NCBI RefSeq assembly: GCF_014202755.1
Contig: NZ_JACHHK010000002.1
Coordinates: forward strand, 62,001-126,000
Reading direction: 5' to 3'
Source of the DNA: Catenisphaera adipataccumulans
GTDB taxonomy: Bacteria; Bacillota_I; Bacilli_A; Erysipelotrichales; Erysipelotrichaceae
Length of the DNA stretch: 64,000 nucleotides
Shown piece after piece: positions 5,209 through 36,873 of this stretch; positions within the stretch are counted from its first letter, which is position 1; the number at the start of each line of letters is the position of its first letter. Under the pieces are notes generated by a model. It saw only the letters and a program-made list of their open reading frames with translations, had not been told where the DNA came from and did not search any database. Position numbers and translations under genes: made by a program.

Positions 5209-5258
5209 GATTTTATGGTGAGGAACAATCATCTTTTGGATAGAGAGGGTTAATTTTT

Positions 5259-5363: not shown

Positions 5364-5364
5364 A

Positions 5365-15062: not shown

Positions 15063-18000
15063 ATGAAGATCAGCAGACTTTTCAACATGCTTTTTAGCGT
15101 GTTTATTTCTTTTTGTATGGCTTTTTCGCTTGTTGCAGAATCTGCATTTGCACAAGAAGAGGTTTCTTGGAGCGGTGTCGATAATGTAACCGTTGATGCC
15201 GGAACAGTGAAGCTGACGGACGGTGTAACAGCCGCACAGAACGGACAATCGTTATCTGTTCAAGTGACGAATGTTAAGGCGGCCGGTGATGAAACTTTCG
15301 TCTTTCAGAAGGGCATGACCGAGCTGAATGCGGCGGCCGGTGCGGTGTATACTGTGACCTACAGTGCGTATGCAGCAGATGATGTGAATCAGCAGGATCC
15401 GATCGGTCAGAAAGATCGTATTATCACGGTCAATCCGGAAGCAGAAGTTCAGCCGAAAGCGGCCAGTACGGAGGATCAAAAGGATTCCACTAGCGTGCCG
15501 GCTCAGAATGATTCGGGTGATGTGGAAACAGCGACGCATCGTTTAAAGTGGATCGACGGAACCGATAACTCGGAGATCACCAACAACGGCGATTCTTTGT
15601 CGATCACACCGACGACAAATTTCACGAAAGGTATTGTACAAGCACAGCTGGATTTCTCAACAGGCGGTCACAAAGTCTGTGCACCGTATTCCATCGAAAT
15701 TCGTATCCCGTATCATATATTCTATGATCGAAACGGCGATCCTTGTGATACGCTGAAAACAGCGCTGCCAAAGTATCCAAATACATCGACAGAAAGTTCT
15801 TTTAATTATCGTATCGATACAGATACGAATGAGATCGTGATCACCAACTTCGAAGAAGTAAAAGATGCAGCGATGTTTACAACGACAATGTCTTGGTCTT
15901 TTACGCCGATGGATGTGGCAAATGGGTATACACATGATGATATTCAAGCCAAATTTACAACGAAGTACACGGATGATGAAGGCAATGCAGGACAGCTGGA
16001 TCAAACCAGCGATACGTTGAATGTGTCGGTCAATACGTCCGCAAAATTAACCGATGCAAAAAAGAAAATGGTCAAGCAAATCAGTAAATGGCGTGATGAA
16101 TGGGGCGAAAAGCCTGCAGATGCAGATGATTATTTTTATCTGGAATGGCAGAGCTATTATCGTGTTGACAGAGATTCTACGCAGCCATATTATGTGACGA
16201 TTGATGAAGATACGACGAAAAGCGACGGGATCGTCGGATATTACAAAGACACAGGCTTAGATTACTATGATCAGTCATTTAGTGATATGGCGCAGGGAGA
16301 TACATTTGTTCGTACTACAGATAGTCAAGTTGTCTGTGATAATTATGATGATTATGAAAAAGACGGCCAGACATATCGCGATATCGACAATTTTGCGGGT
16401 CGCTTATGTACCGCACATGGTGTGTATTATGTCTGCCGGTATAAAAAATCCAAATATACAAGTCTGCCGGCTGAGGTGGATAATACGATCAATGTGACGC
16501 TCCATGGCATTGATGGAAATACCGAAGAGAAAAGTGCTTCGGCTTCACATGCATATGACGGTAAAGAATATGAATACGGCGGCGATATGTACTCGATATC
16601 CAAGTTTTGGCAATATATGAGCAGCTACTCCTACCGTGATCTGCTGAATGGCAAGGACGTGCCGCTGCAGTGCTACTTCTTCATGGGCAGTTCGGCACGG
16701 GGCTGGAGCTTTACAAAAGACGGCAATGAATATGGCAAAAAGATGTATACCGCAAATTTCATCGATGACCATATCACGTTCGCCGGTCAGCGTCTGCAGC
16801 CAGGCGATTACTCATTTTCGCATTTCGCACCAAGAATAAGCACGTATAATATGGATCCGGATAACGGTAAAGCGATCCGAGAAAAAAATGATGAAACAAC
16901 GGAAATCACCATTTGGTATAAGACACCGGAAAATCAGGAATGGACGAAGCTGAAAACCGGCACGATCGAAGAGACGAAAAATGTTGATTTGCCGGATCAA
17001 ACCTATGCGGTAAAGGTTTCGGCGCATACGAAACATTACCAAGTGGATATAAACCCGCAGCTCATGATCACATTAAACAGTACAGATCATGTCAAACAGA
17101 TCATCAATGATGAATTAGCGAAGGGAAAAGATTCAATGCTCGTGCGGAATATCAATACGTTAGCCGTTCAGGACAGCACCGGTGAGTATGTCGATATTAC
17201 ACAAGGCAATCAACTGAGTACTTCGGTTGACCGTGCGCAGCTGGCTGCAGAAGATCGGCAGAATTTCAACGGGCATGTTGGGATTCATGCGGATGCTTAC
17301 AACTATGTGATCGATTATCCATATGATCAAGATACGACGAAGTCCGTAGGCAATCCGGTATCGGATCCGGTACATGGAAGAGAAATTCTGCACTATACTT
17401 TGAAAAAGAGCAATGAAATCAAAGCACTGCCGGATGTGACATCTGCGGAAGAAATAAAGGAAAAAACCGATTTCATTGATGTGTACACGAACGGAACTTT
17501 CTACGATTTACTGCCGAAGGGCTGTTATTATCTGGAAGGAAATACGACGGTAAAAAGCAATCTAGGCGATCTGACAAAGGATCAATATGATGTAGAGACG
17601 GTAAATAACTGGAAAGACACCGGACGAACCATGGTCATCGTACATGTTCATTTGCCGGAAGATGCAAAAAATTATTCATCCAGTTCCGGCTATCGTACAA
17701 TATTGAATTCGTATTTAAAAGTATCGTTTGATGCTTATTATCCATGGACGAGCATTGTAGATTACGGTAAGTCGATCCAAAATAGTTATGCCTATGAAAA
17801 TAGTACGGATATGCGGTCGGGAACGAATGATAATGGCGGCTATACAGCAAATAAGGACGTATATACCGATCTGGACGGCAACGGAAAGACGGATGACAAT
17901 AAAAAATATTCCTATTCGTTTGCAGCGTACAGTAATTTTCCTGTCGAATTCTTAGCACAGTCCGGTTACTATAAGCGTGTTAAAGCAGAAAATGACAATC

Positions 18001-20369
18001 TGTATGGAGAGACGGCGCACGTTCAGGGCGGCGGTCAATATGAATATCAGCTGCGCTACGTGTCCAAAAATAACGGCAACACCAAGGGTTTGATCATGTA
18101 CGATACCTTGGAAGATGCGTACGGCGAAAATACGTATTGGAAAGGTAAGCTCCTCAGCATCGATACATCTCAGCTGGAAAGCAAGGGAATCAAACCAGTT
18201 GTATATTACTCAACACTGGAACATATCGATCCGCAGAACAACCCAGGACAGGCTGATGTTTCCAATTCAGCTTTCTGGAGCACGACCAAGCCAAGCGATC
18301 CATCAAAAATCACCGCGATCGCAGTCGATATGCGCTATAAAGAAAACGGCGAGGAATATATCTTCGGTCCAAGTGAAAGTGCCGTTGTCCTGCTTCATAT
18401 GAAAGCGCCGACCGATGTATCAAAATACGTCGATCCGCAGGTATATGCATATAACGATGCGACCGTGCAGGAAAAGTTCTGGAGCAAGGGTGAACAACCG
18501 CCGGCAACGGCCAGTCTGGAACGTTCGCATGTCACAAAGGTCGATCTGGAACCACAGATCGAGATCCATAAAGACAGCGATCCAGAAACCGGAACCAAAG
18601 AAGATCCTACTGTTGTAGAAACAGACAAGAATCTGACTTATACGCTGCATGTGACCAATAAACTGGAACAAGATTCAATAAAGGATGTAGAAGTCACGGA
18701 TCCGATCCCGGACGGTTTGACGATCGATACAGAAAATATTCAATATTACACCGGAGATGATCCGGCAGATGCGAAAGCCGTCAATGACGATGCGGTTCAA
18801 ATGACCAAGACCGACCAGAAACTGGTCTTCCAGATCGCGGAACTGAAGGGCGGACAAACTGTACACCTGGTGATCCCGACAATTGCGAAGTCGAAGGTCA
18901 CTTATGACAACACCGCAAAAATCACGTCCATCGGTGATGAGAACGTGGATATTACCAGTGAAACAACGCATCATAAACGCAAGTTCAAGGACAGTACCTT
19001 GACGATCAAGAAGACCGTCGGCAGCGTACAGAAAGATGCCGATAAGGAATTCACATTTACAGTCAATCTAATGGATGCGGAAGGCAAAGCGGATACCGGT
19101 ACGTACGATTATGAGATCACCAAAGATGGTGCGTCTGTATCGACAGGCACGATCCAGAACGGCGGCACGATCAAGCTGAAAGACGGCGAACAAGTGACCA
19201 TCAAGAAACTGCCGGGCGATGCGAAATACACCGTGAAGGAAGAAACGCTGAACGGCTATACGACAACGATCGACGGCAAGACATCCGACCAATTGAAAGA
19301 AGGAGAAGAAACCGTTGTTTCCTTCACGAACTATAAACATTCAACCGTCAAGTTTAGAAAACTGGGCGAGGATGAACCGCTGGCCGGCGCAAAACTGGAG
19401 ATCCGGCAGGGAAATAAGACCCTGCATTCCTGGACCAGCACGACAGAGGACAAATCCTTTGTCCTGGAGAAAGGGGAATATCAACTCGTTGAGACCGAAT
19501 CGCCAAGAGGCTGGTACAAAGCTGATCCGATCACGTTCCGTGTGAACCAGGACGGCTCCGTGGAGATCAAACAGGACGGCAGCTGGGCCGCACAGGATGA
19601 GCAGACGATCGTCATGGACGATCCGATCATCCCGACTGGTTCCTTGACCATTCATAAATCAGTGACCGGAACGGCCGGAGATAAAACCAAGAAATTCCCG
19701 TTCACCGTCACATTGACAGATGCCGACGGAAATGAATTGACCGATTCGTTCCAAGCGGACGGCAAGGAATTCAAGAGCGGCGATACGATCAAACTGGCAG
19801 ACGGAGACAGTGTGACGATCGAAGGTATTCCGGAGAAGACGAAATATGTCGTTACAGAAAGCGACAATAAAGAATATGACGTCACGATCACGGTCAATGG
19901 ACAGACTGTTGACAAAGCAGAAGGAACGATCGTTGGTGACGATGAGCAGGATGTTGCGTATGTCAATGATCGTCCGGGCACAGAGCTCACGGTCACGAAG
20001 CGTTGGAAGAATACATCGAAGACGCCGCAGTCTGTGAAGGTACAGCTGTATCGAAACGGAAAACCGGAAGGAGATCCGATCGAATTGACAGCTGCGCAGA
20101 ACTGGACCTATACGTGGACAGGCCTGGATGCCAAACAGAAATGGAGCGTTGATGAAGTCAATGTGCCGAAGGGCTATAAGAAGAGCACGGATCATCAAGG
20201 CAGTCATTGGACCATTACCAACACCGGACAGAAGAAGAAAACAGTTACGCGCAAGTCAACTAAGCACAAAGGCTCGCGAACTGGGCTGAATACAGGAACG
20301 GTCTTCTTCCTGTTGTTGAGTGCTCTCGCAGTTCTTGGCTTTGTGGCCGTACGAAAGAGAAGATCCTAA
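15063..20369 (+). CDS. Giant surface adhesin with Cna-B/isopeptide-type domains
   Basis: Protein of 1768 residues. Signal peptide with cleavage near AFAQEE (about residue 31). The region 40-1160 is large and unrecognised, rich in Asp, Tyr and Thr, and probably the adhesive part. From about 1162 come a DUF11-like domain (TYTLHVTNKLEQ...DPIPDGL), a Cna-B/pilin-type domain (about 1310), a SpaA/prealbumin-like domain (about 1426, LAGAKLEIRQG...YQLVETESPRG), a second copy of the 1310-type domain (about 1524) and a Cna-B domain (about 1637, TVTKRWKNT). The end is a Lys/Arg linker, GLNTG, a hydrophobic helix and RKRRS. The sorting motif is non-canonical, like that of the preceding gene. The leader has GAGAGGG before ATG 15063. 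Confidence 0.85.
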   Translation: MKISRLFNMLFSVFISFCMAFSLVAESAFAQEEVSWSGVDNVTVDAGTVKLTDGVTAAQNGQSLSVQVTNVKAAGDETFVFQKGMTELNAAAGAVYTVTYSAYAADDVNQQDPIGQKDRIITVNPEAEVQPKAASTEDQKDSTSVPAQNDSGDVETATHRLKWIDGTDNSEITNNGDSLSITPTTNFTKGIVQAQLDFSTGGHKVCAPYSIEIRIPYHIFYDRNGDPCDTLKTALPKYPNTSTESSFNYRIDTDTNEIVITNFEEVKDAAMFTTTMSWSFTPMDVANGYTHDDIQAKFTTKYTDDEGNAGQLDQTSDTLNVSVNTSAKLTDAKKKMVKQISKWRDEWGEKPADADDYFYLEWQSYYRVDRDSTQPYYVTIDEDTTKSDGIVGYYKDTGLDYYDQSFSDMAQGDTFVRTTDSQVVCDNYDDYEKDGQTYRDIDNFAGRLCTAHGVYYVCRYKKSKYTSLPAEVDNTINVTLHGIDGNTEEKSASASHAYDGKEYEYGGDMYSISKFWQYMSSYSYRDLLNGKDVPLQCYFFMGSSARGWSFTKDGNEYGKKMYTANFIDDHITFAGQRLQPGDYSFSHFAPRISTYNMDPDNGKAIREKNDETTEITIWYKTPENQEWTKLKTGTIEETKNVDLPDQTYAVKVSAHTKHYQVDINPQLMITLNSTDHVKQIINDELAKGKDSMLVRNINTLAVQDSTGEYVDITQGNQLSTSVDRAQLAAEDRQNFNGHVGIHADAYNYVIDYPYDQDTTKSVGNPVSDPVHGREILHYTLKKSNEIKALPDVTSAEEIKEKTDFIDVYTNGTFYDLLPKGCYYLEGNTTVKSNLGDLTKDQYDVETVNNWKDTGRTMVIVHVHLPEDAKNYSSSSGYRTILNSYLKVSFDAYYPWTSIVDYGKSIQNSYAYENSTDMRSGTNDNGGYTANKDVYTDLDGNGKTDDNKKYSYSFAAYSNFPVEFLAQSGYYKRVKAENDNLYGETAHVQGGGQYEYQLRYVSKNNGNTKGLIMYDTLEDAYGENTYWKGKLLSIDTSQLESKGIKPVVYYSTLEHIDPQNNPGQADVSNSAFWSTTKPSDPSKITAIAVDMRYKENGEEYIFGPSESAVVLLHMKAPTDVSKYVDPQVYAYNDATVQEKFWSKGEQPPATASLERSHVTKVDLEPQIEIHKDSDPETGTKEDPTVVETDKNLTYTLHVTNKLEQDSIKDVEVTDPIPDGLTIDTENIQYYTGDDPADAKAVNDDAVQMTKTDQKLVFQIAELKGGQTVHLVIPTIAKSKVTYDNTAKITSIGDENVDITSETTHHKRKFKDSTLTIKKTVGSVQKDADKEFTFTVNLMDAEGKADTGTYDYEITKDGASVSTGTIQNGGTIKLKDGEQVTIKKLPGDAKYTVKEETLNGYTTTIDGKTSDQLKEGEETVVSFTNYKHSTVKFRKLGEDEPLAGAKLEIRQGNKTLHSWTSTTEDKSFVLEKGEYQLVETESPRGWYKADPITFRVNQDGSVEIKQDGSWAAQDEQTIVMDDPIIPTGSLTIHKSVTGTAGDKTKKFPFTVTLTDADGNELTDSFQADGKEFKSGDTIKLADGDSVTIEGIPEKTKYVVTESDNKEYDVTITVNGQTVDKAEGTIVGDDEQDVAYVNDRPGTELTVTKRWKNTSKTPQSVKVQLYRNGKPEGDPIELTAAQNWTYTWTGLDAKQKWSVDEVNVPKGYKKSTDHQGSHWTITNTGQKKKTVTRKSTKHKGSRTGLNTGTVFFLLLSALAVLGFVAVRKRRS

Positions 20370-20541: not shown

Positions 20542-22665
20542 GTGAAAGGGTCTGAGGAATATTTACTGCAGTACATGGACGGACATGATAAACGGTTTGT
20601 CATTCCAGTCTACCAACGAAATTATAATTGGAAAAAAGAAAACTGCGAACAGTTATATAATGATTTAATTCGTGTAGCGAAAAATCATTTAAAGGCACAT
20701 TTTTTTGGTTGCATTGTTGCGGTACATGAGGATTCAAATAATACAAATTTAATTATTGACGGACAGCAACGTTTAACAACGGTTTCTTTATTACTTTTAG
20801 CTATGTGCCATTTATTGAAACAAGGTAAGGTGACATCAAATGATCCGCTCCTTGCTGAACAGATTTATGAAGTATACATTATTGATCGTTGGAAAAAAGA
20901 AGATAAACGAATCAAATTAAAACCAGTTAATGATGATAATAAAGCATATTTACAGTTGTTTAAAAGTGAAGACGAGTTTATTGAAAATTCGGATATTACT
21001 ATAAATTACAAGTATTTCTGTGAACAGATCCAAAAGCAGGAAATTACAATTGATGAATTGTATGATGCAATCAAAAAGCTGCAAATCATTCATATTGAAT
21101 TGAATCGAGACGATAATCCGCAGTTGATTTTCGAAAGTCTAAATTCGACTGGTGTGAATCTAAACGAAGGAGACAAAATTCGCAACTATGTTTTGATGGG
21201 CCTGAGTGAACATGAACAGGAAGAATATTTTAATAAGTACTGGAGCCCGATTGAAAAGGCAGTAGATAACGATGTCAGTATTTTTATGCGGGATTATCTG
21301 CGCTTGAAAACACAGCAGCAGCCACCAATGTCGAAGGTCTATCGTGCATTTAAAGAGTATGTAGAAGAACATGAAATTCCAACTGAAGAATTATTTCAGA
21401 ATCTTTTTATGTATGCGAAATATTATGAGGTATTGATAAAAACTAAGTCTGAATATAACACATTGGAGGCAAAATTAAGCGGAAAGTTGCGTAGTACAAT
21501 ATTACGTCTGAATTGGTTGGAGACCACGGTTACACGTCCATTCTTGATGGAAGTTCTGCGCCTTTTTGATGAAGAAATATTAAATATAGATGAGACAGAA
21601 GAAGTGTTCTTATTGATTGAAGATTATATTTTTCGCAGAAAAATTTGTGATGTACCGACGAACGCCTTAAATAAAATCTTTACTTCATTGAATCGTTCCG
21701 TTATAGCCTATGATCAGACAACGGACAATTATGTGGAAAAAATGAAGTATTCCCTAAAAAGCAGAAAAGAAAGTGGACGTTATCCATCCGATGAGGAATT
21801 TTTGACTGCTTTATCGACTCGAAATATCTATCAAATGAGCAGTCGCATTCGATCTTATATCATGGAGCGTTATGAAAACTTTGGGACCAGGGAAGTTAAA
21901 AATGTTTTCAAAGGCTTAGATGATGGCACATATTCAATCGAGCATATCATGCCTCAAAATTTGACTATACAATGGCAGAATGCATTGGGGAAAGATTATG
22001 AGACGGTCCATGAAACATGGCTGCATCGATTAGCTAATCTTACATTGACTGCGTATAACTCGAATTATAGTAATGATTCGTTCCTTAAAAAGAGAGATTT
22101 AATCGATTCAAAGACTGGATTAGGGATTGGTTTCTCAAACAGCGGTCTGCGCATGAATCAATGGATCGGTCAGCAGAACCAATGGACGCTGAAAGAACTG
22201 GAAGAGCGCAACCAGCGAATGATGGAACAAGCACTGAAAATTTGGCCGTATATGGAAACTGAATTTGTACCAAAAGAAAAAGACAGTGAACGTTTCACGC
22301 TGGATGAGAAAGTAGATGCAACAGGCTATTCAATTTTGTCCTTCTCGTATCAGGGAAACGTGCAGAATGTAAAGTCCTGGGTCGATGCATATATGAAAAT
22401 CATTAGAATCCTTCATCAGCAAGATGCTTCAGTATTAACAGAACTTGCTTATAACACAGATGAAAATGATCTTTCAATTTATTTTACAACAGGAAACGCT
22501 GATCCATTTTTCTACAAGGAAGTGCAGGATGGAATTTATGCATATATTAAGCTTGCAAATAGGCAAAAATTATCAATCTTAAGAAGATTATTTAAAAAAT
22601 TTCATGCAGATCCGCAGGATTTAGAATTTACAGTAAAACATAAAAAACAAACGGAAGAAATATAA
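20542..22665 (+). CDS. DUF262/DUF1524 protein, GmrSD-like defence factor
   Basis: 707 residues. The N-terminal DUF262 part has IPVYQRNYNW (about 20-29) and IDGQQRLTT (about 72-80), the ParB/Srx-like nucleotide-binding motifs of GmrS. A DUF1524 His-Me-finger nuclease part follows with EHIMPQ (about 466) and HRLANLTLTAYNSNYSN. A further C-terminal region resembles the DNA-binding-type domains found after DUF1524. GmrSD enzymes cut DNA with modified cytosines; here both functions are in one chain. GTG start at 20542 after GGAGGG. It lies just upstream of hsdM within the defence island, and phage defence is the likely role. Target unknown. Confidence 0.85.
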   Translation: MKGSEEYLLQYMDGHDKRFVIPVYQRNYNWKKENCEQLYNDLIRVAKNHLKAHFFGCIVAVHEDSNNTNLIIDGQQRLTTVSLLLLAMCHLLKQGKVTSNDPLLAEQIYEVYIIDRWKKEDKRIKLKPVNDDNKAYLQLFKSEDEFIENSDITINYKYFCEQIQKQEITIDELYDAIKKLQIIHIELNRDDNPQLIFESLNSTGVNLNEGDKIRNYVLMGLSEHEQEEYFNKYWSPIEKAVDNDVSIFMRDYLRLKTQQQPPMSKVYRAFKEYVEEHEIPTEELFQNLFMYAKYYEVLIKTKSEYNTLEAKLSGKLRSTILRLNWLETTVTRPFLMEVLRLFDEEILNIDETEEVFLLIEDYIFRRKICDVPTNALNKIFTSLNRSVIAYDQTTDNYVEKMKYSLKSRKESGRYPSDEEFLTALSTRNIYQMSSRIRSYIMERYENFGTREVKNVFKGLDDGTYSIEHIMPQNLTIQWQNALGKDYETVHETWLHRLANLTLTAYNSNYSNDSFLKKRDLIDSKTGLGIGFSNSGLRMNQWIGQQNQWTLKELEERNQRMMEQALKIWPYMETEFVPKEKDSERFTLDEKVDATGYSILSFSYQGNVQNVKSWVDAYMKIIRILHQQDASVLTELAYNTDENDLSIYFTTGNADPFFYKEVQDGIYAYIKLANRQKLSILRRLFKKFHADPQDLEFTVKHKKQTEEI

Positions 22666-22843
22666 AAATCATTAGGTAATGCAAAATTTTATGAATTGAA
22701 TTACAGAATGGGCTCGAATAAAATAATACAGTCATCTGTATCTGATAGTAAATAGCACCTGTATAATAAAAAGCAGAGAGCTCTTTATTACTAAGAATCT
22801 GCACAGATAAGAACATGATTGAAAATAATTGATGGAGGATCAT

Positions 22844-25423
22844 ATGAACAAACAACAACTGGCCGCAAAAATTTGGGAATCTGCAAATAAAATGCGTTCG
22901 AAAATTGAGGCAAACGAATATAAAGATTATATTCTTGGTTTCATATTCTATAAATACTTATCTGATCGCGAAGAAGAATGGTTATTATCCAGAGAATACA
23001 CACCAGAAGATATAAAAGAGTATGTAAATGAAGAGGATGAAGAGACGGTAAAAAATACACAACAGAGTCTCGGTTACTTTATTGCATATGAAGATTTGTT
23101 TTCTACTTGGATCAAAATGGGATCAGATTTTAGTATCGATAATGTCAGATTGGCATTGTCTTCCTTTATTCGCTTGATTTCACCAACACATCAAAATGTC
23201 TTTAAAGATATATTTAATACGTTGGATACAGGATTAAGTAAATTAGGAGATAATACAAAATCACAAACAAAAGCAGTCAGTGATTTGATCCACTTGATTA
23301 AAGATATTCCGATGGATAGTAAACAAGGTTATGATGTCTTGGGCTATATTTACGAATATCTACTGGAAAAATTTGCTTCAAATGCAGGAAAAAAGGCAGG
23401 AGAATTCTACACTCCGCATGAAGTATCATTATTAATGTCAGAAATTGTAGCGCATCATTTACAGGGAAATGATGAGATTAAAATCTATGACCCAACATCT
23501 GGTTCTGGATCATTATTAATTAACATTGGCCATGCGGTTGCGAAGTATATAGATGATCCAAACAAAATTCGATATTATGCGCAAGAATTGAAAGCAAACA
23601 CATATAACTTAACAAGAATGAATTTGGTGATGAGAGGAATTCTTCCGGATAATATTGTTGTGCGCAACGGCGATACATTAGAAGAAGACTGGCCTTATTT
23701 TGAGGAGTCTGATCCAATAGGTACTTATGATCCTTTGTATGTTGATGCTGTTGTCAGCAATCCGCCTTACTCACAAAACTGGGATCCATCGGGGAAAGAG
23801 AATGATCCTCGTTTTGCCCGCTATGGACTTGCACCGAAAGCAAAAGCTGATTATGCCTTTTTGCTCCATGATTTATATCACTTAAAGCCTAATGGAATCA
23901 TGACCATTGTACTGCCTCATGGAGTTTTATTCCGCGGCGGTGAAGAAGGCAAGATCCGCAAAAATTTGATCGAACAAAACAATATCGACACGATCATCGG
24001 ATTGCCGGCTAATATCTTTTATGGAACGGGAATCCCAACAATAATTATGGTTTTACGCCAAAAACGGGAGAACACGGATGTGTTGATTGTTGATGCGTCC
24101 AAAGGATTTACGAAGGAAGGAAAAAACAATAAACTGCGTGCCTGTGATATTCGTAAAATCGTAGACACAGTTACAAAAAGACAAGAAATAGATAAGTATT
24201 CTCGACGGGTGACTTTGGAAGAGATTCGTTCAAATGATTACAATTTGAATATTCCGCGCTATGTTGATTCTTCTGAAGAAGCAGAATCTTGGGATATTTA
24301 TGCATCAATGTTTGGTGGCATACCGAAAAATGAAATTGATCAATTAAATCAATATTGGGAAGCTTTTCCAACATTACGGAAAGATATTTTCGGTGAAGAT
24401 AAAACGTATTCAAAAGTTCAAGTGGATGATTTAAAACAAGTAATTGATCAAAATGAAGATGTGAAAAACTTTTTAGCTGCATACAAAAAACAATTTTCTA
24501 ACTTTGGAAACGTATTAACAGATGTGTTGATTTCGAAAGCAGAAAATTTAAATGTTGCGAAAACAGAAGATTTATTATCATCCGAATTATTTGAACGGTT
24601 TGACGACATTCCTTTAGTTGATCCTTATGATGCTTATGAAATTTTCCACAATGCTTATTCTGTTATTTCGACAGATTTAGAAATGATACAGACAGAAGGA
24701 ATGAAAGCAGTAAAACAGGTCGATCCGAATATGGTCATTAAGAAGAAAAATAACAAAGAACAAGAAATTCAGGATGGTTGGAAGGGACATATTCTACCTT
24801 TTGATTTGGTACAAAAAACATTTCTTTCTGATGAACTAGAAAAAATCAAACAAAAAGAATCAAGATTGAACGAGATTCCTTCAGAATATGAAAATATTTT
24901 AAGTGAAATGTCCGAGGATGATAAAGAGACAATATCGGACGCTTTAAAAGAAGATAATGATGCATTTGTAATGAAGAATATTAAACCAACCATTAAAATG
25001 CTTACAAAAACAGATTCTGTTGAATATTCAGAATTAATTGATCAGCTGCAAAAAGTAGAAGTTTGCAATAAAGAAGAAAAATCTTTGAAATCACAACTTA
25101 AAAAAGACAAAGAAGAAATCGAATTACGTACCAAAGAAGTCATTTTAAATTTAGATGTAAATGAAATACATATTATTCTTCAGAAAAAGTGGATCGAACC
25201 TATTTTGGATGGAATCATGGAATTACCTGAATCAGCTCTAAAAGAGCTGCAAAATAAGGTAAATTCGTTAAACAATAAATATTCTGATACTCTTGCGGAT
25301 ATTGAAAAAGAAATCCAAGAAACAGAAGCAAAACTATCAGAAATGATGTCAGATTTGACTGGATCAGAAGAGGATATTGAAGGAATTCGTGAATTTCAGA
25401 AGCTTTTAGGGGGTGATTTCTGA
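22844..25423 (+). CDS. hsdM: Type I restriction-modification DNA methyltransferase subunit
   Basis: Adenine-N6 methyltransferase, 859 residues. The N-terminal HsdM helical domain (about 1-170) precedes the SAM-binding motif DPTSGSGSLLIN (about 216) and the catalytic NPPY (about 304). Beyond about residue 470 is a long extension with Glu/Lys-rich coiled coils near the end (about 680-850), making it longer than the usual ~520 residues; such long HsdM forms are common in Bacillota. ATG 22844 follows GGAGG; an upstream ATG at 22829 is less likely. hsdS overlaps its stop by one base (TGATG). With HsdS it modifies the target site; with HsdR it forms the full restriction complex. The 178 bases upstream show nothing definite besides a possible -10 box at 22762. 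Confidence 0.95.
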   Translation: MNKQQLAAKIWESANKMRSKIEANEYKDYILGFIFYKYLSDREEEWLLSREYTPEDIKEYVNEEDEETVKNTQQSLGYFIAYEDLFSTWIKMGSDFSIDNVRLALSSFIRLISPTHQNVFKDIFNTLDTGLSKLGDNTKSQTKAVSDLIHLIKDIPMDSKQGYDVLGYIYEYLLEKFASNAGKKAGEFYTPHEVSLLMSEIVAHHLQGNDEIKIYDPTSGSGSLLINIGHAVAKYIDDPNKIRYYAQELKANTYNLTRMNLVMRGILPDNIVVRNGDTLEEDWPYFEESDPIGTYDPLYVDAVVSNPPYSQNWDPSGKENDPRFARYGLAPKAKADYAFLLHDLYHLKPNGIMTIVLPHGVLFRGGEEGKIRKNLIEQNNIDTIIGLPANIFYGTGIPTIIMVLRQKRENTDVLIVDASKGFTKEGKNNKLRACDIRKIVDTVTKRQEIDKYSRRVTLEEIRSNDYNLNIPRYVDSSEEAESWDIYASMFGGIPKNEIDQLNQYWEAFPTLRKDIFGEDKTYSKVQVDDLKQVIDQNEDVKNFLAAYKKQFSNFGNVLTDVLISKAENLNVAKTEDLLSSELFERFDDIPLVDPYDAYEIFHNAYSVISTDLEMIQTEGMKAVKQVDPNMVIKKKNNKEQEIQDGWKGHILPFDLVQKTFLSDELEKIKQKESRLNEIPSEYENILSEMSEDDKETISDALKEDNDAFVMKNIKPTIKMLTKTDSVEYSELIDQLQKVEVCNKEEKSLKSQLKKDKEEIELRTKEVILNLDVNEIHIILQKKWIEPILDGIMELPESALKELQNKVNSLNNKYSDTLADIEKEIQETEAKLSEMMSDLTGSEEDIEGIREFQKLLGGDF

Positions 25424-26664
25424 TGAAAAAGAAGAAAGCTCCAGATATTCGCTTTAAAGGATTCACGGATGATTGGGAACAGCGTGAGCTGTTCGAAATA
25501 GCCGATATCATCGGCGGAGGTACACCAAGTACATCAAATCCTAATTATTGGGACGGTGAAATTGATTGGTATACTCCTGCAGAGATAGGAGAACAGATTT
25601 TTGTAAATGGAAGTGTACGTAAGATAACCCAAGAAGGGTTGAATAACAGCTCAGCCAAGATGCTTCCTGCCAATAGAACAGTACTCTTTACAAGTCGTGC
25701 TGGAATAGGAAATATGGCTATCTTACAGCGTCCAGGAGCTACAAATCAAGGGTTTCAGTCACTTGTGTGTAATGAAGATATTGACCCATATTTTGTTTTC
25801 TCAATGAGTGAAATCATCAAAGCAAGGGCGGAAACAGTGGCAGCGGGATCTACTTTCTCAGAGATATCGGGAAAGAAACTAGGTGAACTTACTTTTTGGT
25901 TTCCGGAGAGCATTGAACAGAGGCAAATTGGACATTACTTTAAGAACCTCGATAACCTTATTACACTTCATCAGCGTAAATTAGAAAGCCTAAAAAATGT
26001 AAAAAAATCAATGCTTGAAAAAATGTTTCCGAAAAACGGTGAAAAAAATCCGAAGATAAGATTTAAAGGTTTTACTGACGATTGGGAACAGCGTAAGCTG
26101 TTGGAGATAACCACGATGCATGCAAGAATTGGTTGGCAAAACCTTCGCACCTCTGAATTTCTGAATGATGGGGATTACTACTTGATAACAGGAACAGATT
26201 TTAATGATGGAAAAATTAACTTCTCTAACTGTCATTATGTAGCCAAGGAAAGATATGAACAAGATAAAAACATACAAATAAAGAATGGCTGTATCCTTAT
26301 TACAAAGGATGGAACTCTTGGAAAAGTTGCCTATGTAAGTGGCTTAAATAAGCCAGCAACTCTAAACGCAGGTGTGTTTAACGTAACCATTAAAACCGAT
26401 AATGTTGACAGTACATATCTTTATCAATATCTTTCTGGTCCGTATTTAATGGACTATGTATCTAAGCGTGCAACTGGAGGAACAATTAAACATTTAAACC
26501 AAAATATACTTGTTGATTTTCCTGTTATTCTACCATCATACCAAGAACAGAAAAAAATTGGAGCTACATTACAAGGCTTAGATAATCTAATTACCCTTCA
26601 TCAGTGTAAAATTGATAAATTAAAAACTCTTAAAAAAGCTTTATTAAATTCTATGTTTATTTAA
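25423..26664 (+). CDS. hsdS: Type I restriction-modification specificity subunit (expressed copy)
   Basis: 413 residues with two target-recognition domains (TRD1 about 18-184, TRD2 about 221-396), each followed by a helical spacer. Both halves begin with the same motif (IRFKGFTDDWEQR) and end with LDNLITLHQ plus a Lys-rich helix, the usual internal symmetry of HsdS. It decides which bipartite DNA sequence the complex recognises. At DNA level each TRD is framed by TTGGGAACAG and CTTCATCAG, and the same borders frame the two silent cassettes downstream. The start overlaps the hsdM stop. TRD1 is duplicated exactly at 26819-27320. Confidence 0.95.
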   Translation: MKKKKAPDIRFKGFTDDWEQRELFEIADIIGGGTPSTSNPNYWDGEIDWYTPAEIGEQIFVNGSVRKITQEGLNNSSAKMLPANRTVLFTSRAGIGNMAILQRPGATNQGFQSLVCNEDIDPYFVFSMSEIIKARAETVAAGSTFSEISGKKLGELTFWFPESIEQRQIGHYFKNLDNLITLHQRKLESLKNVKKSMLEKMFPKNGEKNPKIRFKGFTDDWEQRKLLEITTMHARIGWQNLRTSEFLNDGDYYLITGTDFNDGKINFSNCHYVAKERYEQDKNIQIKNGCILITKDGTLGKVAYVSGLNKPATLNAGVFNVTIKTDNVDSTYLYQYLSGPYLMDYVSKRATGGTIKHLNQNILVDFPVILPSYQEQKKIGATLQGLDNLITLHQCKIDKLKTLKKALLNSMFI

Positions 26665-26818
26665 TTTATTCAATTATTTGTTGATTGAGATTTGCTATAG
26701 AAATTCAAAATCATTATTCTTGGTTTGTGTAATAGTTACAATTGATTTTTTTATCAAACCAAATCATTGTTTCTTGTTTGTTTATAAGACCATAAATTAT
26801 TGTGTTGAATATTGATTT
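26665..26818 (+). other. A+T-rich spacer between hsdS and the first silent cassette
   Basis: About 150 bases with a possible stem between TTGGTTTG (from 26722) and CAAACCAA (near 26755). There is no ribosome binding site and no promoter good enough to express the cassette that follows. Confidence 0.4.
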
Positions 26819-27320
26819 TTGGGAACAGCGTGAGCTGTTCGAAATAGCCGATATCATCGGCGGAGGTACACCAAGTACATCAAATCCTAATTATTGGGAC
26901 GGTGAAATTGATTGGTATACTCCTGCAGAGATAGGAGAACAGATTTTTGTAAATGGAAGTGTACGTAAGATAACCCAAGAAGGGTTGAATAACAGCTCAG
27001 CCAAGATGCTTCCTGCCAATAGAACAGTACTCTTTACAAGTCGTGCTGGAATAGGAAATATGGCTATCTTACAGCGTCCAGGAGCTACAAATCAAGGGTT
27101 TCAGTCACTTGTGTGTAATGAAGATATTGACCCATATTTTGTTTTCTCAATGAGTGAAATCATCAAAGCAAGGGCGGAAACAGTGGCAGCGGGATCTACT
27201 TTCTCAGAGATATCGGGAAAGAAACTAGGTGAACTTACTTTTTGGTTTCCGGAGAGCATTGAACAGAGGCAAATTGGACATTACTTTAAGAACCTCGATA
27301 ACCTTATTACACTTCATCAG
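26819..27320 (+). pseudogene. Silent hsdS TRD cassette 1, exact copy of TRD1
   Basis: All 502 bases are identical to 25473-25974, the TRD1 module of hsdS. The copy begins at TTGGGAACAG and ends at CTTCATCAG; the flanks on both sides are unrelated to hsdS. An open frame runs on to a TAA at 27324-27326, but it lacks a ribosome binding site, the N-terminal HsdS segment and the spacer helix, so it would not make a working subunit. It is best read as a stored or donor module for exchange with hsdS. Confidence 0.88.
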
Positions 27321-27360
27321 TGTTAATAAAATTATTTATAAAAATTGTTTAGATATATTC

Positions 27361-27847
27361 TTGGGAACAGTGTGAGTTTGGAGATTTAGGCTCAGTTGCT
27401 ATGTGTAAGCGAATATTTAAGCAACAAACAGCCACAAAAGGAGATGTTCCATTTTATAAAATTGGAACGTTTGGTGGAGAACCTGATGCATATATTTCAA
27501 AAGAACTTTTTGAGGAGTATAAAGAGAAATTTAATTACCCAGAGATTGGAGATGTATTGATTTCTGCATCTGGTACGATAGGAAGAACTGTTGAATATAC
27601 TGGAAAAGATGAGTATTTTCAGGATTCCAATATTGTGTGGTTCAAGCATGATGATAGAGTGGATAATACATTTCTTAAGTGTATATATTCCTTGGTAAAA
27701 TGGGAAGGAATTGAAGGGAGTACTATTAAGCGACTTTACAACGAAAATTTCTTAAAAACTAAATTTACACTTCCAAACATTAATGAACAGAAGAAAATTG
27801 GGGAGTATTTTGAGCAACTTGATAACTTTATCGCCCTTCATCAGTGA
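27361..27847 (+). pseudogene. Silent hsdS TRD cassette 2, different specificity
   Basis: Begins TTGGGAACAGTGTGAG and ends CTTCATCAGTGA, the same borders as the other TRD modules. The frame is open from 27362 (WEQCEFGDLGSVAMCKR...) to TGA 27845-27847, about 161 codons. The TRD itself (GDVPFYKIGTFGG, ISASGTIGRTVEY, LDNFIALHQ) differs from TRD1 and TRD2, so bringing it into hsdS would create a new recognition half-site. No ribosome binding site or complete HsdS frame is present. A 40-base A+T-rich spacer separates it from cassette 1. Confidence 0.85.
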
Positions 27848-27889
27848 CATAAAAATTAATATAATAAACATATAAATATAGGAGAAATT

Positions 27890-30800
27890 ATGATTGGATT
27901 TGAGAAAGAACTGGAGTTTGAGAAAGCTTTAATTACTGCACTTCAGAGTAATGGATGGGAAAAGGAAGTTATATACCACCCAACAGAGGAGCAGCTTATT
28001 CAAAATTGGGCGAATATTTTATATAAGAATAATCAGGATATAGATCGTCTTAATCATGTACCATTGATACCGGAAGAGATGGATCAATTGCTTGAACAGA
28101 TCCGATCTTTACGGACTCCTTTAGCATTAAACGGGTTTGTAAATGGAAATTCGGTATCAATTATCAGAAAAAATCCCAATGATACACAGCATTATGGAAA
28201 AGAAGTCAGTCTAAAAATATACGACAGAAAAGAGATTGCAGGAGGACGAAGCATTTACCAAATTGCTGAACAACCTGTTTTCCCTAGACAAGATAAGACG
28301 CTTCAGGATCGACGTGGCGATTTGATGCTTTTGATCAACGGAATGCCGCTGTTTCATATTGAATTGAAACGAAGCGGAGTCCCAGTAATGGAAGCATGTC
28401 ATCAGATTGAGAAATATGCACATGAAGGTGTATTCACTGGCTTATTTTCACTTGTGCAGGTTTTTGTGGCAATGAATCCAGAAGAGATGGTTTATTTTGC
28501 GAACCCTGGACCGGATGGTCGATTCAATCCTGATTTTTATTTTCACTGGGAAGATTTTAATAATGAACCGATTAATGATTGGCGTTCTCTTTCAGAGGCA
28601 TTTTTATCCATACCACAGGCTCATCAGCTAATTGGGTATTACACAGTTGCGGATGATTCTGACGGCGTATTGAAGGTGCTGAGAAGTTATCAATATTATG
28701 CGGCAAATAGAATTTCAGACCGTGTTGCTAAAAATGACTGGAATGATCACAATCAGTTGGGCGGTTATATTTGGCATACGACTGGATCTGGGAAGACAAT
28801 GACTTCCTTTAAATCCGCACAGTTGATCGCTTCATCACATAATGCGGATAAAGTTGTTTTCCTTATGGACCGTATCGAACTGGGAACACAGTCATTAAAA
28901 GAGTATCGTGCTTTTGCGGACAATGCGGACGATGTACAGGAAACAGAAGATACTATCGCGTTGATTAGTAAACTGAAAAGTATAAATCCAAAAGACACTC
29001 TGATCGTATCTTCCATTCAGAAAATGAGCAATATCAAAGAAGATGCTGAGGGGAAAATGCGTGCGAAAGACATTGAAGATATGAAATCAAAACGCATTGT
29101 ATTTATTATTGATGAGTGCCATCGATCTACATTTGGACAGATGCTGAGCACCATCAAACAAACATTTCCGAATGCTTTATTCTTTGGTTTTACTGGTACG
29201 CCAGTATTCGAAGAAAATGAAAAAGCTTTAAGCACGACTGCAGATGTTTTCGGAAATGAACTGCATCGATATAGCATTGCGGATGGTATTCGAGATAAGA
29301 ATGTTTTGGGTTTTGATCCAACGATGGTGATGGTCTACAACGATAAAGAATTACGTGAAGCAGTTGCATTAGAGCAGGCAAAAGCCAGCGACATCGATGA
29401 GGTCATGGGAGATCCAAAAAAAGAGAGAGTTTTTTATCATTTTATGTCCAATGCGGAAGTGCCGATGGCAGGCTATCAGGGAGATGACGGTAAATATCAT
29501 AAAGGAATCGAAGATTATTTACCGAGAGAACAATATGAATCGGATGATTACCAAAATGCCGTTGTGAAAGATATTGTTGATAATTGGATGACAATGAGCC
29601 GAAATCATAAGTTTCATGCCATTTTTGCGACGAGCAGTATTCCGGAAGCGGTTCAGTATTATAGAAAATTTAAGGAATGTGCGCCATGGTTAAAAACAAC
29701 CTGTGTGTTTGACCCGACAATTGATAATAAGCATGGTCATATTTCATTGGCAAAAGAAGACGGCATCAAAGAAATGCTTGAAGACTATAATGAAGCATTT
29801 GAACAAAATTTTGATATTGGACGTTACGGTATGTTTAAAAAAGATGTTGCGGCCCGCCTGGCACATAAACGTCCTTATGAGCGTGTCGATATGGTGCATC
29901 AATTAGAGCTTGTGATTGTTGTGAACCAATTATTGACCGGATTTGATTCAAAATGGATCAATACATTGTATCTGGATAAAGAATTAGTTTATCAGAATTT
30001 GATTCAAGCATTTTCGCGGACCAATCGTTTATTTAATATTAATGAAAAACCGTTCGGTTCGATTCGATATTATCGTCGGCCTCATACAATGAAACGCAAT
30101 ATTGAAAACGCGGTAAAATTGTATTCCGGAGATCGTCCAATGGGATTATTTGCGGATCATTTAGCTGACAATATCAGACATATGAATCTATCTTATAAAG
30201 ATATGATTTTAGTGTTTAAAAATGCCGGAGAACCTGAAATGTTGAAATTGCCACAAGAACATGCTGAAAAGGTTAAATTTGCCCAGTTATTCCGGCAATT
30301 TTCTACATATTATCAGGCAGCGCAGATTCAAGGATTCAACTGGCAAAACAAAGAATATGACGAAATCAATGAAGAAGGTGAAAAAATCGGTACAGTGTCT
30401 TTCGAAGTACCGGAAAAAGACTATAAAATATTATTGGCACGTTATAAAGAACTTCGAAACGATGGAGATGGATCGAGCGCTGCAGAAGATGTAACATTTG
30501 AAATCGATCCATACTTAACAGAACAAAATACCGGTGTCATTGATTATAATTACATGAATTCCCGCTTCGAAAAATGGTTGAAAAAGCTGGCTCAGCCAAA
30601 TGTGACAGAAGAAGAACTGGAACAAACTTTAGAAGAACTGCACAAGTCATTCGCATTCCTATCACAAGAAGACCAACAATATGCAAATTTGTTTTTGCAC
30701 GATGTACAAACAGGTGATGTTGAACTGCAGGAGGGACTGCGCTTTCAGGATTACATTACAATGTATGCTACCAATATGAAAAGAGAACAAGTCCATCGTC

Positions 30801-31063
30801 TGCATAAATATTTAGGCGTATCAGAAAAGAAAGTATTCACCTTATTGGATTCACACGTGACAGAAAAAAACCTAAACGAATATGGCCGATTTGATGCTTT
30901 AAAAGCGACAGTTGTAAAAGAAGACGCACAAGAATATTTTACAGCTGTTGAAGGCAAAAGATTGCCAAACTTCAGAGTGAACAATCGCGTGGATGATTTG
31001 CTGAGGGACTTTATATTATCTGGCGGAATCGATATACCAGATCCAGAAAAGAATAAAAAATAG
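27890..31063 (+). CDS. hsdR: Type I restriction-modification endonuclease/translocase subunit
   Basis: 1057 residues. The N-terminal nuclease domain has the PD-(D/E)xK residues in RRGDLMLLI...FHIELKRSG (about 143-160). The SF2 helicase motor has Walker A HTTGSGKTMTS (about 296), DEAD-like box DECHRS (about 407), FTGTP, and the later motif with QAFSRTNR. A helical C-terminal part would bind the methylase core. All motor and nuclease motifs look intact, so the system should restrict DNA. AGGAGA ribosome binding site before ATG 27890. Unusually, the silent hsdS cassettes lie between hsdS and hsdR. Confidence 0.95.
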   Translation: MIGFEKELEFEKALITALQSNGWEKEVIYHPTEEQLIQNWANILYKNNQDIDRLNHVPLIPEEMDQLLEQIRSLRTPLALNGFVNGNSVSIIRKNPNDTQHYGKEVSLKIYDRKEIAGGRSIYQIAEQPVFPRQDKTLQDRRGDLMLLINGMPLFHIELKRSGVPVMEACHQIEKYAHEGVFTGLFSLVQVFVAMNPEEMVYFANPGPDGRFNPDFYFHWEDFNNEPINDWRSLSEAFLSIPQAHQLIGYYTVADDSDGVLKVLRSYQYYAANRISDRVAKNDWNDHNQLGGYIWHTTGSGKTMTSFKSAQLIASSHNADKVVFLMDRIELGTQSLKEYRAFADNADDVQETEDTIALISKLKSINPKDTLIVSSIQKMSNIKEDAEGKMRAKDIEDMKSKRIVFIIDECHRSTFGQMLSTIKQTFPNALFFGFTGTPVFEENEKALSTTADVFGNELHRYSIADGIRDKNVLGFDPTMVMVYNDKELREAVALEQAKASDIDEVMGDPKKERVFYHFMSNAEVPMAGYQGDDGKYHKGIEDYLPREQYESDDYQNAVVKDIVDNWMTMSRNHKFHAIFATSSIPEAVQYYRKFKECAPWLKTTCVFDPTIDNKHGHISLAKEDGIKEMLEDYNEAFEQNFDIGRYGMFKKDVAARLAHKRPYERVDMVHQLELVIVVNQLLTGFDSKWINTLYLDKELVYQNLIQAFSRTNRLFNINEKPFGSIRYYRRPHTMKRNIENAVKLYSGDRPMGLFADHLADNIRHMNLSYKDMILVFKNAGEPEMLKLPQEHAEKVKFAQLFRQFSTYYQAAQIQGFNWQNKEYDEINEEGEKIGTVSFEVPEKDYKILLARYKELRNDGDGSSAAEDVTFEIDPYLTEQNTGVIDYNYMNSRFEKWLKKLAQPNVTEEELEQTLEELHKSFAFLSQEDQQYANLFLHDVQTGDVELQEGLRFQDYITMYATNMKREQVHRLHKYLGVSEKKVFTLLDSHVTEKNLNEYGRFDALKATVVKEDAQEYFTAVEGKRLPNFRVNNRVDDLLRDFILSGGIDIPDPEKNKK

Positions 31064-32542: not shown

Positions 32543-33379
32543 TTATTTCCGGATAAATACTTCATGACGGGCACTGGACTGCCGGAACAAGCGTTTCATC
32601 TCATCGGCATCCTCATTGGCCAAAGCGTCTCGGAAATGCGAGATCGTGTCGATAAACTGATTGGTCTCATCCAGCAGGATATCCTTATTCAACAAGAACA
32701 GCTCGGTCCACATTTCCGCATTGATCGTCGCGATCCTTGTCAGGTCGCGGAAACTGTCTCCCGTATACTTGACCAGATCTTTGGTCTCATGCGTATTCAT
32801 CAAGCTGACCGCGATGATATGGGTCAGCTGCGACAGAAAGGCGATCATCCGGTCGTGCTGTTCCATGGTCAGCTGGGCAATATATGTACAGCCCAGCTTT
32901 GCGCCCAGCGCCTTGGCTGTATCGATCGCTTTTTGGGAATTCTTCTCGGTCGGCACCACGATGAAATTAGCACCGTCGAAAATCGTCGGATCCGAATATT
33001 CGATTCCCTGGGATTCGCGGCCGCACATCGGGTGGGTACTGATCAATTCGCAATCTTCACGCAGTACGTCTTGACAAGGTACGATGATATTCGACTTCAC
33101 ACCGCTGATATCCATCAACAGACAGCCTGGTTTCAAAGCATTTTGATGTTCCTCAATCCACGGCTTGATCTGCGTCGGATACAATGCCAGCACCACGATA
33201 TCGCAGTCCTTTAAATATTTATCCGCCTGCAGCGTGCCTTTGGCCACCATATGATGATTGACCGCATAATCAACCGTTGCCTGCCGCCGCGCAAACCCAA
33301 TGACGGTCTCGTCCTGATCGGTCAGCCGTTTCGCATAACTGCCGCCCATCAAACCCAAACCGACTATTCCGTAAATCAT
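32543..33379 (-). CDS. tyrA: Prephenate dehydrogenase
   Basis: 278 residues. The NAD(P)-binding Rossmann start GIVGLGLMGGSYAKRL and the catalytic segment STHPMCGRE (with the conserved His and the Gly-Arg pair) identify the family. It converts prephenate to 4-hydroxyphenylpyruvate, leading to tyrosine. No ACT domain is present, so feedback inhibition, if any, is through another site. Its start overlaps the aroA stop by four bases. It is last in the operon and is followed by a strong terminator. Confidence 0.93.
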   Translation of the reverse strand: MIYGIVGLGLMGGSYAKRLTDQDETVIGFARRQATVDYAVNHHMVAKGTLQADKYLKDCDIVVLALYPTQIKPWIEEHQNALKPGCLLMDISGVKSNIIVPCQDVLREDCELISTHPMCGRESQGIEYSDPTIFDGANFIVVPTEKNSQKAIDTAKALGAKLGCTYIAQLTMEQHDRMIAFLSQLTHIIAVSLMNTHETKDLVKYTGDSFRDLTRIATINAEMWTELFLLNKDILLDETNQFIDTISHFRDALANEDADEMKRLFRQSSARHEVFIRK

Positions 33380-34632
33380 AGTATTTCCACCTTTCCGTTC
33401 AAATGTTTGATATCCGTAAAGAAATCAGGATACGATTTCTCGATGGCTTCGGCGCCTTCGATGATGCTTGGACTTTTGGCGCACAAGCCAAATATTGTCA
33501 TCGCCATCACGATGCGATGATCGTTATGTCCGTCGATCCGGACTGGCTCTGTTTTATGGTATTCCGCTTTGCCAGTGATCGTGATTTCATCTTCCGTGCT
33601 GGAAATCTGCACGCCCCATTTACGCAGTTCCTGTTCCATGGCCGCAATGCGGTCGCTTTCCTTCATCCGGAGACGGCGGGCGTGAATGATCCGGCTTGTG
33701 CCCGGACAATAAGCGGCCAGCACGCAGAGGATCGGTCCTAGATCCGGGCAATCCGCAATATCCATCGTCTGCGCCTGCAGCGACTGGTGCGTGATCGTCG
33801 TTCCCTGGACATCGGCGCCGGCTGCTTTGACAAAATCCAGGATGACTTGATCGCCCTGATGACTGTGCGGATCGATATGCGCGCACGTCAGCGAGGACTG
33901 AATGGCTGCCTCCACCGCATAAAATGCCATCTGGGAGGCATCACCTTCCACCGATACATGGGCCGCCTGATAAGACTGGCCGCCCGGGATCTGATAGACC
34001 AGCGGGGATGGATGATGGACCGTGATCCCGAATGATGCCAAACTGTCCGTTGTCAAATTTACATATGAGGCGGACTCATACGGTGGGAGGATTTCAATGG
34101 TGCTGTCTTGTTCCAACAGCGGCAGCGCAAATAAAAGGCCGGATATGAACTGACTGGAGATATCTCCCTGCACGGCAAAGGACCGTGCCTGCAGAGGACC
34201 GCGCAGACGGATCGTCTGGTCTTGTTCAAAGCGCAGATGCTGCGCCTGAAAGATTTCCTTGTATACGGTCATCGGACGCTGCATCAACCGGCCATGCCCG
34301 ATGAATGTAACATTCGCATCGGATAAGGCGGCAATCGGGATCAAGAAACGCAGCGTGGAGCCCGATTCGGAACAATCACATGTGATCTCACCTGCGACTT
34401 GGCGGACATCGGTCCCCTGGATCGTACAAGCATCTTCTTTTACCGTGATCTTAGCACCCAAATTGCGCATGCATGCGATGGTTGCGTCAATATCTTTTGA
34501 AAACGTAATATGATCGACGACGCTTGTTCCTTTGGCAAGCGATGCGCAGATGATGGCCCGATGGGTCAATGATTTAGACGAAGGGATCGATACGGTACCC
34601 TGCAGGGCACCCGGCAGGACTTTTACGCGCAT
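33376..34632 (-). CDS. aroA: 3-phosphoshikimate 1-carboxyvinyltransferase (EPSP synthase)
   Basis: 418 residues after placing the start at 34632 (MRVKVLPG); the longer upstream frame would run deep into aroC. IPSSKSLTHRA near the N-terminus binds shikimate-3-phosphate, followed by SGSTLRFLIP and, later, the LRMKESDRIAA and DHRIVMAM motifs. The enzyme joins PEP to shikimate-3-phosphate in the shikimate pathway. The LSGSTLRF-type loop reads CSESGSTLRF, closer to class II enzymes. Start overlaps aroC by about 10 bases, so translation is coupled. Confidence 0.94.
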   Translation of the reverse strand: MRVKVLPGALQGTVSIPSSKSLTHRAIICASLAKGTSVVDHITFSKDIDATIACMRNLGAKITVKEDACTIQGTDVRQVAGEITCDCSESGSTLRFLIPIAALSDANVTFIGHGRLMQRPMTVYKEIFQAQHLRFEQDQTIRLRGPLQARSFAVQGDISSQFISGLLFALPLLEQDSTIEILPPYESASYVNLTTDSLASFGITVHHPSPLVYQIPGGQSYQAAHVSVEGDASQMAFYAVEAAIQSSLTCAHIDPHSHQGDQVILDFVKAAGADVQGTTITHQSLQAQTMDIADCPDLGPILCVLAAYCPGTSRIIHARRLRMKESDRIAAMEQELRKWGVQISSTEDEITITGKAEYHKTEPVRIDGHNDHRIVMAMTIFGLCAKSPSIIEGAEAIEKSYPDFFTDIKHLNGKVEIL

Positions 34633-35732
34633 ACCCAGTCCTCCGTCGCTTTTTTGGACATCCATAGATCCAGCAGGCCGAAGGCCACAACGGAATCCAC
34701 GACGACGCGGGCCCGGTGTACGATGCATGGATCGTGCCGCCCTTCGATCTGCAGCGTCACATTTTCTCTTGTCTGATAGTCGACCGATGGCTGCGGCTGA
34801 TAGATGGATGCCGTCGGCTTGATCACGGTATGGATCACGATCGGCATGCCGTTGGTGATGCCGCCGTTGATGCCCGCATTGTGATTGGTCATGGTCGTGA
34901 TGTGTCCATACGGATCGGCATGGAAATCATCGTTGCCCTGCGAGCCTTTGACTTTCGCAAAACCAAATCCCAGACCGAATGAAACGCCTTTGACGGCCGG
35001 CACCGAAAACAATAAATGGCTTAATACGCTTTCCACCGAATCAAACATCGGTTCACCGATCCCGGTCGGCAGGCCGATGACGGCGGTCTCCAAAATGCCG
35101 CCCAATGAATCCCCTTGGGAAGCAACGGCTTCGATCTTTTCTTTCATCTGTCTGCCGACCTCGGTATTCAAGACCGCAAATTCACGATGATTCATCAAAT
35201 CGATTTGTTCTTTTAATGTTTCCAGATCATCCGAAAAAACATCGTCATGGATCGAGTAAAGCTGCTCCATATGGGATCCGATGAAAACACCTTTTTGTTC
35301 CAGGATCTGCCGGCAGATACTTCCCGCAGCGACCAGGCAGGCCGTCAGCCGGCCGGAGAAGTGGCCGCCGCCCCGATAGTCCTGAAAACCATGGTACTTC
35401 TCAAAAGCGGTATAATCCGCATGCCCTGGGCGTAATCGGTTCTTGGTTTTTTCATAATCTTTCGAACGTGTATTGCTATTGTTGATCAAGATGGTCAAAG
35501 CCGTTCCGGTCGTATAGCCATTGAAATAGCCGGAGACGATATGCACTTCATCGGCTTCATGGCGCTGAGTAGAGATGCGTCCCTTGGCCCTGCGCTTTTC
35601 CATATCTGCCGCGATGCGGTCTTCATCCACCGCAAAACCAGCCGGCAGTCCATCCAGGACGGCGCCGATCTGCGGCCCGTGACTTTCCCCGAATACGGTC
35701 AGGGAAATATTTGTTCCAATATTATTCTTCAT
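34623..35732 (-). CDS. aroC: Chorismate synthase
   Basis: 369 residues from ATG 35732 (MKNNIGTNISLTVFGESHG). The N-terminal GESHG motif, GRISTQRHEADEV, RPGHADYTAFEKYHGFQDYRGGGHFSGR and the late GRHDPC segment are the chorismate synthase signatures. It removes phosphate from EPSP using reduced FMN to give chorismate. The N-terminus overlaps the aroB stop by 11 bases, so the AAGGGGTCC-type site upstream lies inside aroB. The enzyme is complete. Confidence 0.95.
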   Translation of the reverse strand: MKNNIGTNISLTVFGESHGPQIGAVLDGLPAGFAVDEDRIAADMEKRRAKGRISTQRHEADEVHIVSGYFNGYTTGTALTILINNSNTRSKDYEKTKNRLRPGHADYTAFEKYHGFQDYRGGGHFSGRLTACLVAAGSICRQILEQKGVFIGSHMEQLYSIHDDVFSDDLETLKEQIDLMNHREFAVLNTEVGRQMKEKIEAVASQGDSLGGILETAVIGLPTGIGEPMFDSVESVLSHLLFSVPAVKGVSFGLGFGFAKVKGSQGNDDFHADPYGHITTMTNHNAGINGGITNGMPIVIHTVIKPTASIYQPQPSVDYQTRENVTLQIEGRHDPCIVHRARVVVDSVVAFGLLDLWMSKKATEDWVCA

Positions 35733-36735: not shown

Positions 36736-36826
36736 AATTTTATTGCTCCTTATCAGTTCGATTTTACCATGAAGTGACAAAAAGACGAAAAAATGTAAAT
36801 AAAGTCCATGAAAACAAAGCAATTTT

Positions 36827-36855
36827 TTTCAGAAAAATGAAACTTGTGGTATGAT
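36827..36855 (+). promoter_or_regulatory. pheA promoter
   Basis: TTTCAG (36827-36832), 17-base spacer, TATGAT (36850-36855), about 19 bases before the start codon. The divergent aroB promoter must lie in the same 138-base gap but is less clear. Confidence 0.6.
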
Positions 36856-36873
36856 TATGAGCAGAGGTGAGCT

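Follow-up and report, generated by a model that had tools for sequence, protein, structure and literature searches.

Several systems that rearrange the specificity gene hsdS of type I RM loci have been described. In Listeria monocytogenes, hsdS inversions take place at agcttgggaacagcgt (the 5′ site) and ctatcgctcttcatcagcgtaagttagat (the central site), with an integrase encoded between the hsdS genes (Fagerlund 2016, PMC4783014); the inverting hsd locus is LMR479A_0528-0532 (PMC4783014), and a CC4 case has also been reported (PMC7662400). The pneumococcal tvr locus (SpnIV) shuffles hsdS at direct repeats by excision and reintegration through circles (PMC6265443). In the hsdS genes of H. pylori, TRDs move between slots and can duplicate or vanish, which is referred to as DOMO (PMC3077401), and in the cod and SpnIII (PsrA) systems a site-specific tyrosine recombinase alters TRDs in type I RM (PMC7096588, PMC4948785). 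Switching type I RM systems have been surveyed on a large scale by looking for inverted repeats (PMC7394358), and arrays built of direct copies only would therefore escape such an approach.

Here, we analyzed a 64 kb stretch of DNA (the window) from Catenisphaera adipataccumulans, whose genus is represented by one genome. Profile matches revealed a complete type I RM set (hsdM, hsdS and hsdR) with the gene order hsdM-hsdS-half-half-hsdR-int, in which two silent half-copies of hsdS separate hsdS from hsdR, and a tyrosine recombinase gene overlooked in the first-pass annotation lies outside the array, 49 bp behind hsdR (Table 1). The frameworks flanking the modules consist of the N-terminus, a 108-bp middle, the tail, the spacers and the hsdR leader. 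Silent cassette 1 is devoid of the hsdS N-terminal region and ends with TGTTAA directly after its R site. No terminator-like site was found between hsdS and hsdR, and an Rfam search of the locus region returned zero matches. As for the surroundings, a gene of the GmrSD type (type IV restriction) is located directly upstream of hsdM (20542-22665), and a GmrSD gene also stands just upstream of hsdM in a Ruminococcus locus (L094); the GmrSD gene and the type I RM operon may form a small linked defence pair. Further upstream, 15063-20369 encodes a surface protein of 1768 aa that combines DUF7601, DUF5979 and Cna_B domains with a hydrophobic C-terminal segment, and the RM locus is followed by an apparent shikimate/aromatic amino-acid gene cluster (32543-37968), as judged by eye from the protein sequences.

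Table 1. Features of the hsd locus in the window (positions are those of the whole stretch).
Feature	Position	Strand	Evidence or remark
hsdM, type I methyltransferase subunit	22829..25423	+	Pfam N6_Mtase 3.8e-105; NCBIfam TIGR00497 1.7e-99
hsdS, expressed two-TRD specificity gene, 413 aa	25423..26664	+	Pfam Methylase_S 3.6e-46, two stretches
TRD module A, slot 1	25473..25974	+	502 bp identical to 26819-27320
L site of slot 1 (TTGGGAACAGCGTGAG)	25473..25488	+	near-invariant in homologous loci; 14/16 vs Listeria agcttgggaacagcgt
R site of slot 1 (..CACTTCATCAG)	25958..25974	+	23/29 vs published Listeria central site
TRD module B, slot 2	26083..26604	+	L site at 26082, R site at 26596
Silent cassette 1, second copy of module A	26819..27320	+	L site 26819, R site 27312; Methylase_S 1.5e-21
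Silent cassette 2, module C	27361..27847	+	L site 27361, R site 27836; Methylase_S 5.4e-25
hsdR, restriction subunit	27890..31063	+	TIGR00348 5.6e-106
Tyrosine recombinase, 313 aa	31113..32054	+	Phage_integrase 4.4e-23; proposed to act on L and R sites

The first-pass annotation had described four TRD modules, two in hsdS and two in the silent half-copies, each between TTGGGAACAG and CTTCATCAG, and this anatomy was confirmed to the base. The identity of slot 1 with silent cassette 1 covers 502/502 positions and stops at both of these borders, and silent cassette 2 indeed codes a different TRD. In the window, TTGGGAACAG is present at 25473, 26082, 26819 and 27361 only, always on the plus strand and never on the minus strand, which agrees with the earlier claim that all copies point in one direction. 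CTTCATCAG is found at the locus at 25966, 26596, 27312 and 27836, and its two copies beyond the locus, at 22411 (plus strand) and 4116 (minus strand), look like chance occurrences. The L site, TTGGGAACAGCG, provides codons for WEQR, and the R site, CTTCATCA, provides codons for LHQ. The module lengths are 501, 522, 501 and 483 bp, every module being open and divisible by three, and all 16 of the 16 placements of two modules into two slots yielded a full-length HsdS frame; together with the shared borders, this bears out the proposal that any module fits either slot. An 18-bp palindrome at 25478-25495 (GAACAGC-GTGA-GCTGTTC) was considered as the recombinase core and rejected, as cassette 2 does not preserve it and the WEQRKL codons account for part of it.

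The L and R borders of the window match both recombination sequences of Listeria, and the integrases are related. The four copies agree with the Listeria sites at 13-14/16 positions (L) and 20-23/29 positions (R), all on the plus strand, and a Listeria innocua locus encodes an integrase that is 62% identical and carries both published sequences exactly, as inverted pairs. The arrangements differ in that inverted site pairs surround the integrase in Listeria, so that segments invert, whereas the sites of the window are all direct; moreover, the spare modules of the window are half genes between hsdS and hsdR, with the recombinase outside the array. No L copy was detected on the minus strand of the window, so the inverted orientation of the Listeria type is absent, and inversion at hidden inverted copies was dismissed since a search of the window for such copies found none.

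A comparative set of about 80 related loci showed that TTGGGAACAGCGTAAG (L) and CTTATCACCCTTCATCA (R) border the modules nearly without exception, and the 15-mer TGGGAACAGCGTAAG was intact at 137 of the 188 TRDs in related loci. In 84 silent cassettes, the L core shows the same constancy as in the expressed slots, although the DNA upstream of these cassettes is only weakly conserved. Site variants are shared within loci: GGAAG and CTTCATGA are common to all copies in one locus (L017), and CTTCACCA is common to all copies within L136 and likewise within L098, as would be expected of sites that have to match for recombination. Among 295 genomes of the order, 19 of which possess the recombinase, the L 15-mer was present in 16/19 recombinase genomes vs 13/276 others (p 6e-16), and at least three copies were present in 9 of the 19 vs 1 of the 276 (p 2e-11). 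The R-to-L spacers between silent cassettes (26605-28000 and related loci) group around 41, 52 and 62 bp, at intervals of roughly one helical turn; helical phasing is suggestive only, the signal being strong on all values and at p 0.06 on distinct lengths, with the loci related to each other.

The recombinase retains the motifs TGMR, HGLRH and LGH and a tyrosine at about residue 290. A scan with this protein gave 80 loci at 70-80% identity, mostly from Bacillota with single cases from other phyla. When extra loci from related genomes were added (91 recombinase loci), homologues adjoined type I RM genes (HsdM/HsdR/TRD) at 84/91, and most of the other seven were cut by contig ends. The arrangement hsdM-hsdS-half-half-hsdR-int, on a single strand and with the 108-bp middle, recurs in Selenomonas, Pseudoramibacter, Lachnoanaerobaculum, Clostridium aminophilum, Veillonella, Absicoccus and others, and the gene order is kept across families. 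The protein could in principle be the mobility integrase of an RM island whose half-copies are decaying remnants, and its distant relationship to phage integrases, e.g., those of the Listeria phages B054 and B025 (about 49%), would fit such an origin. This explanation is highly improbable in view of the conserved gene order and of the silent cassettes, 73 of the 76 that carry both sites being open and in frame; in addition, Streptococcus homologues at 60-73% identity nearly all adjoin RM genes, whereas those at or below 37% do not. In the recombinase tree, the window protein falls in a supported clade of 23 (97/92), the complete loci of which comprise 13 direct-only, 2 cassette-free and 0 mixed loci, with 11 mixed loci elsewhere in the tree; since midpoint rooting was used and the sample consists mainly of the best matches to the window, the direct-only clade is to be read as a tendency within that sample.

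The related loci also contain natural recombination products. TRDs that are duplicated or shared are similar over the stretch running from TTGGG to CATCA, with divergence setting in directly beyond it, i.e., TRDs change exactly at both borders, which supports the first-pass annotation in treating the borders as recombination endpoints and in favoring copying or excision-reinsertion over inversion. Two C. aminophilum loci (L040 and L041) have frameworks that are 94-98% identical and TRDs that are unrelated at all four positions, and cassette 4 of L040 resembles slot 2 of L041 (85.5%), so that a TRD recurs in a different slot. A deletion ladder was observed in Veillonella, in which three loci carry four TRDs (L031), two (L045) and one (L055), with unchanged ends joined at R sites. 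Exact duplicate TRDs were found in 8 of the 57 loci with at least two TRDs (the window, L032, L044, L049, L079, L091, L097 and L098). In L044 and L091, a TRD is present in two copies that differ in the base after CTTCATCA and are otherwise identical; this base therefore belongs to the framework, and the right junction lies within CTTCATCA. In the window, the upstream variant TATTACA travels with module A. In L049, the hsdS gene (4471-5568) has two 100%-identical TRDs (495 bp), and its HsdS is predicted to recognise a symmetric bipartite target. The 502-bp duplicate of the window might instead be an assembly artefact of a mixed population, with module A in slot 1 or in cassette 1 depending on the cell; the assembly consists of 14 contigs, and active switching would be expected to give such mixtures. 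A search of the assembly for an extra TRD elsewhere found none, and exact duplicates occur in seven other loci from different assemblies, which makes an artefact improbable.

Based on these results, we propose, with a probability of roughly 75%, that the locus is a TRD cassette array of direct copies only, driven by its recombinase, in which modules are exchanged by excision and reintegration at two direct site types. Tyrosine recombinases acting on direct copies excise the DNA between them. The recombinase of the window would join like with like (L x L or R x R), and recombination between direct copies would release a circle. If the circle re-entered through the other site type, two modules would be swapped with the frameworks in place, and if it were lost, a shorter array would result. 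Conservation of both borders is explained by this scheme, since excision by L x L and then reintegration by R x R would exchange modules while the frameworks stay. For the modules A, B, A and C, conservative swaps could produce seven ordered hsdS alleles, each of them in frame. Some points weigh against the scheme. After a single L x L event, HsdS would be truncated for as long as the second event has not taken place. As the L and R cores differ, one recombinase would have to use two site types, as the Listeria data suggest.

In addition, excision-reintegration, being conservative, would not alone produce the 502-bp duplicate; the exact duplicates therefore mean that a copying step is also needed, in which a sister chromosome might supply the circle that integrates, or RecA might act by gene conversion. 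The requirement for copying raised by the duplicates in eight loci also speaks for a broader role of RecA, in which gene conversion or unequal crossing-over at short hsdS borders, in a DOMO-like manner, would move the modules and the recombinase would be unrelated to their movement; DOMO in H. pylori is itself explained by repeat recombination with no recombinase named. We consider this unlikely, given that the shared borders of about 12 and 8 bp are short for RecA, compared with x/y repeats of 37/49 bp in H. pylori, that the DNA sequence of the sites is conserved across phyla and follows the occurrence of the recombinase, and that the border sequences are the Listeria recombination sites.

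The proposed cassette exchange would work like that of tvr, with movement between slots resembling DOMO. Like tvr, the window has direct repeats and equally oriented TRD segments between hsdM and hsdR and a tyrosine recombinase in the locus, although outside the array and behind hsdR, and 2+1 and 2+2 arrangements are a further likeness. On the other side, tvr confines each segment type, N or C, to its own slot, while the slots of the window share borders, and no slot restriction was apparent among the relatives, where the L049 slots are identical and homologous TRDs occupy different slots. Furthermore, the tvr repeats are an 18-bp MPR and a 70-bp TER with the first segment fixed (PMC6265443), and the tvr circle carries tvrA, tvrT and tvrR, whereas the recombinase of the window would stay outside the circle. 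The TvrA-TvrT (Phd-Doc) pair is absent from the window array, and Streptococcus searches (XerS, Doc partner) revealed no tvr locus, the close recombinase homologues being at other hsdS loci. With DOMO the window shares the x-TRD1-y-x-TRD2-y layout, in which both slots have the same borders; in H. pylori, however, the borders measure 37 and 49 bp, neither silent half-cassettes nor a recombinase has been described, and change was seen between strains. The cod/SpnIII systems differ in their inverted repeats of 15, 85 and 298 bp and in the catalytic tyrosine, Tyr 247 in PsrA vs about residue 290 of 313 aa in the window protein. Every element thus has a precedent, the sites and recombinase in Listeria (PMC4783014), direct excision-reintegration in tvr (PMC6265443) and slot freedom in DOMO (PMC3077401), and the novelty implied by the first-pass annotation is not supported. 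The open-access literature consulted contained no account of these elements combined in a conserved direct-only lineage, although a publication on the exact arrangement may exist outside it.

Direct-only arrays are common among recombinase-carrying gut and rumen Bacillota. A TRD with 96.8% identity is present in two species of different families (L019 6269-6742 vs L067 5077-5550): this approximately 97%-identical TRD is in silent position 4 in Pseudoramibacter porci and in hsdS slot 2 in Absicoccus porci, and the flanking frameworks are far more diverged. Sharing of this kind hints at an integron-like lineage, in which free TRD cassettes with universal L/R sites would be captured, stored and expressed by means of a dedicated recombinase and would pass as units between distant species, a reading that we put forward tentatively as a less likely extension. 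Modules may move between species, and since uniform borders allow any module to enter either slot, few modules give many specificities. In C. adipataccumulans, the cells can probably swap modules, changing which DNA they mark and cut, and ongoing switching would be expected to alter the methylome and might make the population heterogeneous, as the first-pass annotation proposed. If active, the array would bring diversity into the phage defence, the epigenetic state and the barriers to gene transfer of a single clone.
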